From a virus, in IMG/VR virus record IMGVR_UViG_3300043772_000121, positions 1 to 24,155 of that record: a stretch of 24,155 nucleotides of DNA; one strand, given 5' to 3'. Position numbers and translations under genes: made by a program. Positions 205 to 23,454 of the stretch are shown in pieces. The first letter of the stretch is position 1. Each line of letters begins with the position of its first letter. Below the pieces are notes generated by a model that was given only the letters and a program-made list of their open reading frames with translations, had not been told where the DNA came from and searched no databases.

Positions 205-858
205 TTACCAGTCAGCGTTTGTTGCTGATGTGGCAGATGGGCCATCAAAGCCCAAGTAGAACGCTTCTTGTTCTGCATATGGAATCTTGCGTAGTGCAGA
301 CTCTAGTGGATAAGGTTTGATATCTCCCCAATTAAATGGTTCCTTATCTGGTGCTGATGGAATAAGTGTGTAATTGGTTTCAGTACCCTGACCATTACGC
401 TTTAACTTCCATTGTACGTTTGAAATGCTTCCTGTTTCAAGAGCATACTCACGAATTGTATTGAATGATGATTGCTTACTGATACCCATTGACCAGATTG
501 CAACATAAGGTGCTTCAATGCCGTCATCTACAACTACGTTGCAATAGAAACGAAGACGTGCTCTCCAGCCAGCCTTTGGATCCTTACGGTGCATCTCTTC
601 TGCCCAGTCACGACCTTCTGTATCCATTGTGTCTACAGCCTTGCGCTTATAGTCTTTTGGATTTGTGTGTTCTGATACAACAATTGCTAGACCACGATCA
701 GCACTATAGTTTGCTGAGTCTTCATCAAGTTCTTCTACAAACCTAATCTTTACTGACTGACCATCGGCAAGTTTTAGCCACTTAACCTTTGGACCATCGC
801 CACCCTTTGGGCCATCTAGTACTGGACCCATTTCTTTTATTCCTCTTAGTATTGCCAT
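205..858 (-). CDS. Probable single-stranded DNA-binding protein
   Basis: A 217-residue protein between primase and polymerase. It resembles the gp32-like single-stranded DNA-binding proteins of tailed phages: an N-terminal GPKGGDGPKVKWLKLADGQ segment leading to strands (VKIRFVEELDED), a central WRARLRFYCNVVVDDG strand region rich in basic and aromatic residues, and a C-terminal helix before a short tail ending ADW. Only one cysteine is present, so there is no zinc site. The 24-base gap after the primase stop contains AAGAGA as a weak ribosome site. Its stop is one base before the polymerase ATG. Family membership is by recollection of similar phage proteins and by context. Confidence 0.65.
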   Translation of the reverse strand: MAILRGIKEMGPVLDGPKGGDGPKVKWLKLADGQSVKIRFVEELDEDSANYSADRGLAIVVSEHTNPKDYKRKAVDTMDTEGRDWAEEMHRKDPKAGWRARLRFYCNVVVDDGIEAPYVAIWSMGISKQSSFNTIREYALETGSISNVQWKLKRNGQGTETNYTLIPSAPDKEPFNWGDIKPYPLESALRKIPYAEQEAFYLGFDGPSATSATNADW

Positions 859-882
859 GTGTTTTCTCTTTTCTGTGTTATG

Positions 883-1827
883 TTAGTTTAGCATAGACTG
901 TATTGATTTGTCAAACTGGAAACTTAGTTCTTGAATTGACTTATCGTCCATGTCGCCTATATCTTTATATTCTTTATTTAGTTTTATTACGGACACACGA
1001 GAACCAAGTTTTTCAACTATCTTAGTTTTCATATTTCCACCTGCTTCATCGTTATCCGCAATGACAATTATATCATTAAAGTACTTTTGAAGCAATTCTA
1101 TTTGTATGTTTGATACGTTAGATCCAAGTGTTGCTACCGCTGGAAAGCCACACTGATCAAGTCTAATAGCATCAAAAGATGACTCTACGATGTATACTTT
1201 GTCAGAACTTTTAACTCTGTGCAAATTAAACAGTGTCTTTGATTTTGGAAGTCCTGGGGTATTTTTAAATTCTTTACCCTCAATAGATCTTCCAACAAAG
1301 CCAATAGGCATTCCGTCTGGGCTATGAACTGGAACAGTTACCATGTCTTGTTTTTCTGAGTAACCCAAAGAAAATTTTGACCAAGAAGAAAGTTCAATTT
1401 TACGATACCTAAAATAATCTTTTGCCCTATCTGATGAAACAAGATTATTGTACAAACGCTTAAGGATCAGTTCATCAAACAAAACAAACTCTGGCTTTTT
1501 GTAAAGGGCCCTATCTATATCTTGCTCTATGCTTGTTTCTGTTTCTTTGCTCTTGATAAACCTTGCAGCCTCAAAGTATGTTCTATTAGACATATGCATT
1601 ACAAACTCTGTTAGTCCAGTTACGTGGTGGCAGGCAAAACAAAAGAAAGTTCCGTCTTGCTTATCTATTTCTCCTGCGGGGGTTCTATTATTGTTATGAT
1701 ATGGACAGAAAATTATATAGTCTGAGTCAACCTCAGACTCAATCGTTACACCTGTTCCCGTAAGGATTCTTTTGATTTGCTCTTTTGTGTAAAGATTGGT
1801 GTGCTTACGTCTATTCCTGATATCCAT
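883..1827 (-). CDS. dnaG: DnaG-type DNA primase (CHC2 zinc finger plus Toprim)
   Basis: A 314-residue primase that makes RNA primers for the lagging strand. The N-terminal zinc finger has C41, H44, C63 and C66 (CPYH then CFAC). The Toprim catalytic part has E215 (YIVESSFDA) and D258/D260 (ADNDEAGG). It is shorter than bacterial DnaG (about 600 residues) and has no C-terminal helicase-binding domain, common in phage primases. The ATG at 1827 is the only usable start before the zinc finger, since no in-frame ATG, GTG or TTG follows before C41; the ribosome site is weak. The first 27 codons overlap the 117-residue gene. Confidence 0.9.
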   Translation of the reverse strand: MDIRNRRKHTNLYTKEQIKRILTGTGVTIESEVDSDYIIFCPYHNNNRTPAGEIDKQDGTFFCFACHHVTGLTEFVMHMSNRTYFEAARFIKSKETETSIEQDIDRALYKKPEFVLFDELILKRLYNNLVSSDRAKDYFRYRKIELSSWSKFSLGYSEKQDMVTVPVHSPDGMPIGFVGRSIEGKEFKNTPGLPKSKTLFNLHRVKSSDKVYIVESSFDAIRLDQCGFPAVATLGSNVSNIQIELLQKYFNDIIVIADNDEAGGNMKTKIVEKLGSRVSVIKLNKEYKDIGDMDDKSIQELSFQFDKSIQSMLN

Positions 1828-2099
1828 TCGCTCTGTCTTCTTCCCGTATATGTTCCGTGTACTGTTAGTTGAAATTCAAAATATTTTTTCTTACTGTTAT
1901 AGTCTAGCGTAAAATCTGGAGTTATGTCAAGCCTTGGTACATACCCTGAAAGTCGCATCTCAGAGTCAAGCAGCCTGACATATTCATCCTTAAGTCTTCC
2001 GAGTGATGCTTCATCGTGTATAACCCCGTCAAGATAGAACTTTTTGATAGGCCTATGGTGATAAAAGGTCGGAGGAAGATTCTCGTGATTTTGTTCCAT
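1746..2099 (-). CDS. Conserved-looking hypothetical protein between helicase and primase
   Basis: A 117-residue protein starting MEQNHENLPPTFYHHRPIKK. The central part (GRLKDEYVRLLDSEMRLSGY, then VPRLDITPDFTLDY) is an amphipathic helix followed by beta strands (FEFQLTVHGTYTG). I recall similar small proteins near helicase and primase genes of actinobacterial phages but cannot name a function. No Shine-Dalgarno is visible. Its last 27 codons overlap the primase start by 82 bases in another frame, a long overlap for phage genes. Position suggests a replication accessory role, by inference. Confidence 0.6.
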   Translation of the reverse strand: MEQNHENLPPTFYHHRPIKKFYLDGVIHDEASLGRLKDEYVRLLDSEMRLSGYVPRLDITPDFTLDYNSKKKYFEFQLTVHGTYTGRRQSEWISGIDVSTPIFTQKSKSKESLREQV

Positions 2100-2104
2100 A
2101 CCAT

Positions 2105-2110
2105 ATTATA
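2105..2110 (-). promoter_or_regulatory. Weak -10-like box before the 117-residue gene
   Basis: TATAAT lies five bases before the ATG at 2099, just after the helicase TAG. There is no Shine-Dalgarno and no TGn extension. It resembles the leaderless arrangement at 4982-4990 but is weaker and may be chance in AT-rich DNA. Confidence 0.25.
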
Positions 2111-2111
2111 A

Positions 2112-3332
2112 CTACTTATCTTCATAATCTTTATATCTGTAATATCCCTTGTCAAAATCAACCTGAACAAGAAAGTCTCCCATAAATCCATTACGGTTCT
2201 TTCTAAAAGCACATTCAATAATATCGCTATTAGATGCTCTTCCAAGAGCAATAACCCAGTCTGCATCGTATGCAATCTGTCTTGACCAGGCAGTTTGTCC
2301 AAGTGTAGGAACTCCACTAAGATCATTAACATCATCTGGCGTGGCAGAGGAGATAGCAATGATAGGAACTTCTTCTCCAATAGCCATTAGTTTAAGTTCT
2401 CTTGAAAGGTTCTTCATTCGTACCGTTTCATTATCTGACTTCTGATTGGGAGCCATCAACTGAAGGTAGTCAACAATTACAAAGTCTGGCTTGTATTGAT
2501 CAATCTTTCCACGAAGAACTGAAGGGTTGATCTCTCCACCTTGATCGTTAGAGATAATATGAAACTCTGGCTTACCCTGTAGATGCTTAGCATGCCAAGC
2601 CTTAAGAGTATCTAATTCTACATCTCCGTTACTTAACTTTCTGTGTGACCAAAGACCTTCACCCATAATAGTAAATACACGGTTACGTACTTCTGTCTCT
2701 GACATCTCAAGTGAGATTACAAGGGGTGTCTTACCCTGCTTCCAAGCCTGTACAGCAAAGTATAAGGCCATCCATGACTTTCCTATACCTGGGTATGCTA
2801 AGAAGACTCCTAACTGCCCTGGCATAATTCCAGAAGGAAGATAGTTATCAAACCCTGGAAGGTTAGTCTTAATACCAACATGTCCTGCTGCCTGCTGAAT
2901 CTTTAGATTCTCAAAGTATGCTACTGCAGATTCAAGATCTGTAACATCAATATCACGAATAGCCGAAGTGTTTTTCTTTAACTCTGATGTTTGAGTAATT
3001 AAATCATTGAGAGCAATTGTACCTTGATTGTTTTGAACATTGCCTGCTGCTGACCTCAGTATATCTTTGAGGCTGTCATTTAAATATTCACCCTGCAACT
3101 CTTCAAGGTGGTGCTTAGTTGCTCCAACATTTTCTATTGGAGAAAAGTCTCTAAATTTTTCTGTAACAAGTTCTGCAGGGGGAAGTGATTTATTATTTTC
3201 AAAGTATAGTCTGATAAAGTTCCAGATGTCTCCATGTGTTCTGAGAAGATTATCGACATTTGCTTGCAAGAGTACATGGATCTGCTTATCTTGAAGAACT
3301 GCAGTAATTAGTTTTGACTCTGTATTATTCAC
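2112..3332 (-). CDS. dnaB: DnaB-type replicative DNA helicase
   Basis: A 406-residue helicase that unwinds DNA at the phage fork. The N-terminal 100 residues are helical, as in the DnaB N-terminal domain (ESKLITAVLQDKQIHVLLQA). The RecA-type motor follows: Walker A YPGIGKS with K185, Walker B VIVDYLQL with D288, and a later conserved segment (SRQIAYDADWVIALGR) typical of the family. The start is GTG at 3332 with AAGGAG seven bases upstream, overlapping the previous gene by 8 bases. It belongs with the primase, single-stranded DNA-binding protein and polymerase downstream. The length is a little under the usual 430-470 residues of bacterial DnaB. Confidence 0.92.
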   Translation of the reverse strand: MNNTESKLITAVLQDKQIHVLLQANVDNLLRTHGDIWNFIRLYFENNKSLPPAELVTEKFRDFSPIENVGATKHHLEELQGEYLNDSLKDILRSAAGNVQNNQGTIALNDLITQTSELKKNTSAIRDIDVTDLESAVAYFENLKIQQAAGHVGIKTNLPGFDNYLPSGIMPGQLGVFLAYPGIGKSWMALYFAVQAWKQGKTPLVISLEMSETEVRNRVFTIMGEGLWSHRKLSNGDVELDTLKAWHAKHLQGKPEFHIISNDQGGEINPSVLRGKIDQYKPDFVIVDYLQLMAPNQKSDNETVRMKNLSRELKLMAIGEEVPIIAISSATPDDVNDLSGVPTLGQTAWSRQIAYDADWVIALGRASNSDIIECAFRKNRNGFMGDFLVQVDFDKGYYRYKDYEDK

Positions 3333-4981: not shown

Positions 4982-4990
4982 ATTATACCA
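4982..4990 (-). promoter_or_regulatory. Candidate extended -10 promoter, leaderless arrangement
   Basis: The minus strand reads TGGTATAAT, then AGTATT, then the ATG at 4975. The TAA stop of the preceding gene lies within the hexamer. No Shine-Dalgarno precedes the ATG, so a transcript starting at the ATG would be leaderless. The box is identical to that at 22698-22706. Confidence 0.45.
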
Positions 4991-22327: not shown

Positions 22328-22669
22328 TTATTTATTTAACGAATTAAGCAATGTTCCTGCTTCAGAGTTTTGAAGCCCTGATGCTACATCGATAATTTGA
22401 TATACAGTTGGAAGGTCTAGAAGATCTTCTAGTGCTTCCCTGTCTTCTGCCAATTCTGGCTTGAATTGCTTTAGTGCAATCTGTGCACAATCAATAAGAA
22501 TATCCATTGACTTATCGTTATCTTCTGAGGCCTCTGAGAGTAGGGCAAACTTAGCCATAAAAGGTCTAAGTAGTGATAACTTAAGTGGTCTTACTGAAAG
22601 TTCTGTCCCGTCGATTAATGTAATAGTCTTACCGCTTGTAGTCTTATTTGTTGAAGGCTTGTCAGCCAT
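22328..22669 (-). CDS. Tail assembly chaperone, short form (G-like)
   Basis: A 113-residue protein encoded directly before the tape measure gene. It contains only the domain shared with the long chaperone: DGTELSVRPLK, a conserved CAQI motif, LEDLLDLPTVYQIIDVASG, then a short tail. Its position and size correspond to the G protein of lambda-type phages, which coats the tape measure during tail assembly together with a smaller amount of G-T. Here it is its own gene rather than the unshifted product of a longer one. It has its own candidate promoter and a very strong Shine-Dalgarno. The stop is 19 bases before the tape measure ATG. The paralogy is read directly from sequence; the chaperone role is from family knowledge and position. 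Confidence 0.78.
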   Translation of the reverse strand: MADKPSTNKTTSGKTITLIDGTELSVRPLKLSLLRPFMAKFALLSEASEDNDKSMDILIDCAQIALKQFKPELAEDREALEDLLDLPTVYQIIDVASGLQNSEAGTLLNSLNK

Positions 22670-22674
22670 AGTCT

Positions 22675-22682
22675 TCCTCCTT
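22675..22682 (-). promoter_or_regulatory. Near-perfect Shine-Dalgarno of the short chaperone gene
   Basis: AAGGAGGA lies five bases before the ATG at 22669. It is the strongest ribosome binding site seen in the window and contrasts with the absence of one before the long paralog, suggesting the short form is made in large excess. Confidence 0.8.
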
Positions 22683-22697
22683 ATAGGTTAACAGTTA

Positions 22698-22706
22698 ATT
22701 ATACCA
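22698..22706 (-). promoter_or_regulatory. Candidate extended -10 promoter for the short chaperone gene
   Basis: The minus strand reads TGGTATAAT, an exact extended -10 consensus. The TAA stop of the long chaperone gene lies inside the hexamer. A start about seven bases downstream would leave a leader of about 20 bases carrying a strong Shine-Dalgarno before the short chaperone ATG at 22669. No clear -35 hexamer is seen, as is common for extended -10 promoters. Confidence 0.45.
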
Positions 22707-23403
22707 CGCTGGAGGGTGTAGATTCATCTAATTTTTCATAGGTTAAGCCCATGCCAATTCCAAACCCTGCTTTTTGTGCATTGATTCCTTGGAGTGCAAC
22801 AATATCTTTTGAGTCTGCTGCTTGACCTCCACTAAAGACTCTAGCCTTCATTTCTTCCCAGGCATCTTGTTTACCACTTGACTTATCTAAATCAACACCC
22901 TGCATGGCAGCAAGAAATTTCTTATTAGAGTAGTCAAGATCTCTTTTAACCTTAAGGGTTGCCATTACCTCTGGCATCGACATTGATGATTCTAGTTCAT
23001 CGTAGTCTTTCCAAATCCCCAGCAAAAATACCTCTGACTCTATCTCTGCTAAATCTAATTCATCCCAGGAAGATCCACTATCTGTTGCTTGAGCCTTTAC
23101 TGGTTCTTCTGATTTTTCATTTATTTTAATACCTGCTGAATAATCTAATAGTTTATATATTGTCGGCATATCAATATTATCTTCTAGTTGTTCCTGAGTC
23201 TTTATGCTTGGATAGTATTGCCTCATTGTTATTGTTGCACATTTACACAAAGCATTAATTGCCTCAATATCGTTTGTTGCTTTTTTTACATTTTCAAATT
23301 CGTCTAAGAATAACTTTAAGTATTTTATTTTTAATGGGATAATATATAGTTCTGTTCCATCGAACAACTCAATGATTGAGGTTTTATATATTTCTGTAGG
23401 CAT
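22699..23403 (-). CDS. Tail assembly chaperone, long form (G-T-like)
   Basis: A 234-residue protein between the tail tube and tape measure genes, where tail assembly chaperones that coat the tape measure are encoded. Residues about 1-90 (DGTELYIIPLK near the start, LEDNIDMPTIYKLLDYSAG near the end) match the whole of the next gene product, at roughly 28 of 78 aligned positions by eye. A unique C-terminal part follows, rich in acidic and amphipathic segments (WDELDLAEIESEVFLLGIW, FGIGMGLTYEKL), the place of the T extension in lambda-type systems. The ATG at 23403 was chosen because the longer reading begins with TTG inside the hairpin stem. No Shine-Dalgarno is present. It ends V-V-stop encoded by GTGGTATAA, which overlaps the promoter-like box of the next gene. 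Confidence 0.75.
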   Translation of the reverse strand: MPTEIYKTSIIELFDGTELYIIPLKIKYLKLFLDEFENVKKATNDIEAINALCKCATITMRQYYPSIKTQEQLEDNIDMPTIYKLLDYSAGIKINEKSEEPVKAQATDSGSSWDELDLAEIESEVFLLGIWKDYDELESSMSMPEVMATLKVKRDLDYSNKKFLAAMQGVDLDKSSGKQDAWEEMKARVFSGGQAADSKDIVALQGINAQKAGFGIGMGLTYEKLDESTPSSVV

Positions 23404-23409
23404 TATATA

Positions 23410-23418
23410 AGTATACCA
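23410..23418 (-). promoter_or_regulatory. Candidate extended -10 promoter for the long chaperone gene
   Basis: The minus strand reads TGGTATACT, an extended -10 box (TGn plus a TATAAT-like hexamer), followed by six bases and then the ATG of the long chaperone gene at 23403. No Shine-Dalgarno precedes that ATG, so transcription starting at or near the ATG would give a leaderless mRNA. No convincing -35 box is seen. The site lies just after the UUCG hairpin, which fits a new transcription start after partial termination. Confidence 0.4.
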
Positions 23419-23422
23419 AACA

Positions 23423-23454
23423 GAAAGGCCCAACCCCGAAGGATTGAGCCTCTC
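23423..23454 (-). terminator. UUCG-capped hairpin after the tail tube gene
   Basis: In minus-strand RNA, GAGAGGCTCAATCC pairs with GGGTTGGGCCTTTC around a TTCG loop closed by C-G, giving 14 base pairs including three G-U wobbles. The wobbles make the hairpin good only in the minus-strand transcript, which supports a role in RNA. It begins about 16 bases after the tail tube stop. The downstream tract (TGTTTGG) is only weakly U-rich, so it may be a partial terminator or a 3'-end stabiliser for the tube mRNA rather than a complete terminator. Confidence 0.65.

Follow-up and report, generated by a model that had tools for sequence, protein, structure and literature searches.

Duplicated tail assembly chaperone genes, with dosage set at initiation, may well have replaced the chaperone frameshift once in a clade of environmental phages

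The tail locus and its two putative chaperone genes

The stretch of DNA analysed here (the window) is a virus record of 24,155 bases, and its tail operon carries, in minus-strand order, a major tail protein gene, a long and a short gene for putative tail assembly chaperones, and a tape measure protein gene (Table 1). The coordinates first proposed for the two chaperone genes are correct, and their strand, which the original prediction had left unstated, is minus. The ORF of the long gene has a further TTG upstream of the ATG, at position 23433. The call of the major tail protein agrees with the records of relatives, in which the gene at the same position is named likewise. Scans of the whole window for Rfam families, tRNAs, and tandem repeats were all empty. 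The tape measure protein of the window is very long, at 3432 residues compared with about 2100 in the Streptomyces phage relatives EGole and Moab (from record coordinates). Beyond the tail module lies a replication module (positions 205-3332, minus strand) with genes for a DnaB-like helicase (2112-3332), a DNA primase (883-1827), and a single-strand binding protein (205-858).

Table 1. Features of the tail locus, in minus-strand order, with the matches or observations on which each assignment is based
Feature	Position in window	Strand	Basis or remark
Major tail (tube) protein gene, 207 aa	23470..24093	-	phrog_2175 1e-31; phrog_885 (major tail protein) 0.002
Terminator-like hairpin, UUCG loop, between major tail protein and P1	23423..23454	-	hairpin and T run in 137 relatives
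P1, extended -10 box TGGTATACT	23410..23418	-	predicted promoter; ends 6 nt before the long-gene ATG
Long gene, putative in-frame GT-like tail assembly chaperone, 234 aa from the ATG at 23403	22699..23403	-
Long gene, G-like domain, residues 1-98	23110..23403	-	phrog_10504; paralogy with short protein
Long gene, T-like domain, residues 109-234	22702..23079	-	phrog_10474
P2, extended -10 box TGGTATAAT for the short gene	22698..22706	-	predicted promoter; overlaps the long-gene stop codon
Shine-Dalgarno sequence AAGGAGG of the short gene	22676..22682	-	duplex energy -11.1
Short gene, putative stand-alone G-like tail assembly chaperone, 113 aa	22328..22669	-	phrog_10504; paralogy with long gene
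Tape measure protein gene, 3432 aa	12010..22308	-	phrog_10030 3e-95; PF10145 7e-27

The short protein and the N-terminus of the long protein are paralogues. BLASTP aligns them with 32/88 identities (36%), 61/88 positives, two one-residue gaps, and an E value of 3e-19 (an end-to-end alignment made earlier by eye had about 28 of 78 positions and two one-residue gaps), and their Smith-Waterman score of 162 compares with a mean of 31 and a maximum of 60 over 2000 shuffles (z = 24). The G-like family of the Streptomyces phage relatives, phrog_10504, is matched independently by the short protein (2e-16, residues 14-101) and by the long protein (1e-18, residues 1-106), placing both in one family and not in unrelated ones. 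The C-terminus of the long protein matches a separate, T-like family, phrog_10474 (8e-16, residues 130-188), and is homologous to the -1 frame ORF of the Streptomyces phages; the T-like tail that had been proposed for the long gene is supported, and in relatives it is encoded in another frame. Neither chaperone protein gave a usable match in Pfam, and a sequence-profile search of the PDB returned chance matches only. Both genes are under purifying selection, with a median dN/dS of 0.075 for the long G, 0.069 for T, and 0.11 for the short gene.

Assignment to the tail assembly chaperones is suggested by position between the major tail protein and the tape measure protein, with the same order in relatives, and by the presence of a short form and a longer form with a common N-terminal domain. 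The short protein is modelled by AlphaFold (pLDDT 70) as a beta-hairpin plus helices. Foldseek, run with this model against 350,542 PDB chains, ranks the HK97 tail assembly chaperone 2ob9 first, a weak match (E 0.72, TM about 0.4, 8% identity) which fits the chaperone assignment but is suggestive only and no proof of it. The model of the long protein matched nothing specific in the structure search. The G:GT ratio of 30:1 is crucial in lambda, where the tape measure protein is bound by G and the tube protein by T, and the G/GT frameshift is widely conserved among long-tailed phages (PMC5009743). The window resembles lambda gpG/gpGT, the products of a programmed -1 frameshift (PMC5009743), in position, in having a short G form, and in having a long form made of a similar N-terminal domain plus a T-like extension. 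It differs in having two complete genes with separate start signals and no conserved slip site, and no sequence match to the lambda proteins is shown. By analogy, we infer that the window proteins would act as lambda G and GT do.

Two layouts of the locus and the probable loss of the slip site

We gathered 339 loci from five scans of viral contigs and a phage collection; they were picked by similarity to the window and to its Streptomyces relatives, and certain contigs turned up repeatedly across scans, so that the counts should not be read as population frequencies. G and T lie in one ORF, with a separate G gene coming next (the fused layout), in 254 loci, and 8 further fused loci end at most about 150 nt past the long gene; the short gene follows, at the same position, in all 254 fused loci that reach far enough. 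The frameshift layout, a single G with T in an overlapping -1 frame, is found in 75 loci, and 72 of these extend at least 450 nt past T, enough to show a second G. The other two loci have a G match alone; one is a contig that is cut off, and the other is Brevibacillus phage Jenst, a distant one. Counted as unique sequences, there are 162 fused and 54 frameshift layouts. Among the 339 loci, a -1 T is never accompanied by two G genes, and none shows an in-frame T while the second G is visibly missing. The two designs are mutually exclusive within one locus. The window has the fused layout: its T is in frame with G, as in the 254 relatives and the 8 cut-off loci, and not in the -1 overlap of lambda-type genes. 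Rhodococcus phage Trina was rejected as a two-G locus, one gene having been matched in two segments. One scan of bacterial genome contigs found no relatives.

The Stanwilliamsviridae (Streptomyces phages, among them EGole, Coruscant, and Moab) share homologous G and T domains and gene order with the window, but they have one G, with T in an overlapping -1 frame and a slip site, CCCAAAT for the Moab type or CCCGGAA for the EGole type. The Rhodococcus phages Trina and NiceHouse, with distant G and T homologues at the same position, likewise differ from the window in their frameshift design with overlapping -1 ORFs. Among the Streptomyces and Rhodococcus phages together, the G-T join is annotated in the records of NiceHouse and Yaboi. 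An in-register heptamer lies within the G/T overlap in 38 of the 54 unique frameshift loci, most commonly C CCA AAT, C CCA AAC, or C CCA AAA, with G GGA AAC in the locus L335 and G GGA AAA in the Rhodococcus phages; the remaining 16 (EGole type; L083, L084, and 14 more) carry just the non-canonical C CCG GAA. As a positive control, judged by inspection, CCCAAAT is invariant in 11 Moab-type sequences even though flanking synonymous sites vary. Overlaps and heptamers of this kind point to frameshifting in these relatives.

The original prediction held that the long gene contains no canonical slippery heptamer. To the letter this is not so, given that the window's gene has an in-register A AAA AAA at about codon 40, inside the G domain; nevertheless, the point stands in substance, because that heptamer is present in only 10 of 144 relatives and lies far from the G-T junction. 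Across the 144 relatives the long gene has no conserved heptamer, the commonest in-register one (36/144) being inside T, and at the junction (codons 91-117) synonymous sites are no more conserved than elsewhere in the gene. For the short gene, 134 of 145 sequences have no in-register heptamer within the final 35 codons. One could still suppose that the long gene yields both forms by an unrecognised frameshift or early termination, perhaps at A-run heptamers such as that of the window or one at codon 103 in 18 of the 144 long genes, and that the short gene took on another function. We regard this as very unlikely, since neither a widely shared heptamer nor a constraint peak at the junction is seen, as compared with the invariant CCCAAAT of the Moab-type relatives, and the short gene is always there, in the same place.

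To place the switch between layouts, the tree of T was rooted on the Rhodococcus phages, with their annotated frameshift and GGGAAAA heptamer. The duplicated type forms one clade (98/93) nested within frameshift lineages, the nearest being L335, L312, L326, and then L306-L332. The major-tail-protein tree agrees, with the duplicated type as one clade (91/76; one clade in 92% of bootstraps) and L335 then L312 nearest, subject to a long-branch warning. This single nesting in both trees supports the frameshift layout as ancestral and as having been replaced once in the sampled loci. The converse, with the fused two-gene layout ancestral and the frameshift layout derived, has in its favour that the fused layout is the commoner one in the sampled contigs, albeit in a sample chosen by similarity to the window. 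With the Rhodococcus outgroup, however, the fused type falls as one clade inside several frameshift branches of the T tree, and it is one clade in the major-tail-protein tree also, so that this converse order of events is hardly credible to us.

The aquatic frameshift relatives L335, L312, L326, and L306-L332 are thus nearest to the window in T and major tail protein, and they also have a -10 box and a Shine-Dalgarno sequence before G; they differ in their single G, -1 frame T, and heptamer CCCAAAC or GGGAAAC. The slip site of L335, as well as of L336 and L337, is GGGAAAC and not CCCAAAC, and in these three loci the interval from T to the tape measure gene contains a TGGTATAAT box.

Trees of G resolve the long copies as one clade and the short copies as another (98/92 and 100/97, respectively; 100/98 and 99/91 with closer relatives); Jenst was removed from the trees (end branch 3.75, falling inside the long clade). 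The earlier proposal of two complete genes made by duplication gains from the paralogy, the in-frame fusion, and the single nested clade. The two clades are sisters (100/98) when the relatives are from Streptomyces only, and AU tests did not reject alternative placements of the G copies (p 0.22 and 0.24). When closer relatives are added, the single G of L335 joins the short copies (99/95), which makes the short gene look like a continuation of the old G; it is possible that the duplication came before the L335 split and was followed by a loss, or that there was a transfer. Separate clades with no sign of exchange would also suit two G domains with split roles, for instance in contacting distinct regions of the 3432-residue tape measure protein, with dosage secondary. 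We think it quite unlikely that this is the main explanation, as it leaves unexplained the exact coincidence between presence of the second G and loss of the frameshift; it is nonetheless compatible with the duplication model given below, the two not being exclusive.

Start signals and a model for the ratio of the two forms

The layout of start signals at the two genes is conserved. The P1 -10 box stands exactly 6 nt before the long-gene ATG in 132 of 143 unique loci, and the long gene is without a Shine-Dalgarno sequence (median duplex energy -2.9 kcal/mol). From the 6-nt spacing, transcription is predicted to start at the A of the ATG, which would give the long gene a leaderless mRNA. An extended -10 box precedes the short gene in 145/145 unique loci, in nearly all of them 24-29 nt before its ATG, and the Shine-Dalgarno sequence of the short gene is stronger than that of the long gene in 143/143 loci. 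The coding parts of these genes, 137,922 bp in all, contain the 9-base P2 motif 4 times. In the window taken by itself, the -10 pattern is only mildly enriched (6 found compared with 2.6 expected), so the case for the promoters rests on position and on conservation in relatives; a generic promoter scan of the window was uninformative (5 found, 5.6 expected).

Before the single G of most frameshift relatives there is a TATAMT box, mostly 22-29 nt upstream (none was found in 12 of 45 unique leaders), and the median Shine-Dalgarno energy is -10.2. This leader resembles that of the short gene, and thus the short gene appears to keep the old layout, while the leaderless long gene looks new. A second TGGTATAAT box, at window positions 4982-4990 (minus strand), ends 6 nt before the ATG of a gene at 4975-4532 (minus strand), which is without a Shine-Dalgarno sequence, has a weak match to phrog_122 (head decoration, 0.0015), and is another predicted leaderless gene; 6-nt starts of the leaderless type may be usual in the window phage.

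The following model, taken as a whole, seems to us likely. In the ancestor, one G gene would have given G and, through a -1 ribosomal frameshift, GT. In the window clade, G would have become two genes, most simply by a single duplication; the upstream copy, joined in frame to T, would always yield GT, the downstream copy would yield G only, and the slip site would have been lost. GT would be translated at a modest rate from a leaderless mRNA starting at P1, without a Shine-Dalgarno sequence, and G would be translated by way of a near-perfect Shine-Dalgarno sequence, both on transcripts that read through from P1 and on those of its own promoter P2, leaving G in excess. From there on, the proteins would behave like those of lambda, with the tape measure protein coated by many copies of G and few of GT, and with T recruiting the tail tube protein.

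Given the opposite start signals of the long and short genes, the G:GT ratio is probably set at initiation. Leaderless mRNAs can be translated efficiently in actinobacteria, and for this reason the excess of G is not certain. The same property would favour a variant in which the duplication and the frameshift loss are real and the ratio does not come from the start signals, GT and G being made in similar amounts or their ratio depending on mRNA processing, translational coupling, or protein turnover. We consider that variant unlikely, because the contrast in start signals (a -10 box at 6 nt and no Shine-Dalgarno sequence for the long gene; a Shine-Dalgarno sequence and its own -10 box for the short gene) is kept in every locus tested. 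Carried over to the whole clade of environmental phages, the reading that we lean towards is that the near-universal chaperone frameshift was dropped once in favour of a duplication with dosage control at initiation, through a leaderless GT and a G that is led by a Shine-Dalgarno sequence and has its own promoter.

Precedents and meaning

The proteins themselves are of a known kind. In a literature search whose coverage misses most subscription papers, a G/GT duplication was not found described, and no paper on Nanopelagicales phages was found; within the searchable papers, this holds for an in-frame GT gene with a separate paralogous G under opposite start signals and for a clade-wide replacement of the frameshift. 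The nearest precedent is a remark that in some cluster EA Microbacterium phages two chaperone ORFs seem to be expressed separately, with no evident frameshift (PMC7302621). These phages can be set beside the window by description only, as the passage containing the remark is silent on paralogy, on in-frame GT fusion, and on expression control (PMC7302621).

It is not clear why the G/GT frameshift is so widely kept, and hence the value of one related group that holds both the frameshift and the two-gene design, with the direction of change supported, in which one can ask directly whether the frameshift has a role beyond fixing a ratio. If the model is true, the clade is a natural test of whether the frameshift matters for the ratio alone. 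For annotation within this phage group, a second chaperone gene can be taken as the mark of frameshift loss. A separate point of annotation concerns Brevibacillus phage Jenst (L259), in which the G-like gene just before the tape measure gene is annotated as a 'putative DNA polymerase III subunit gamma/tau' and is probably a tail assembly chaperone.
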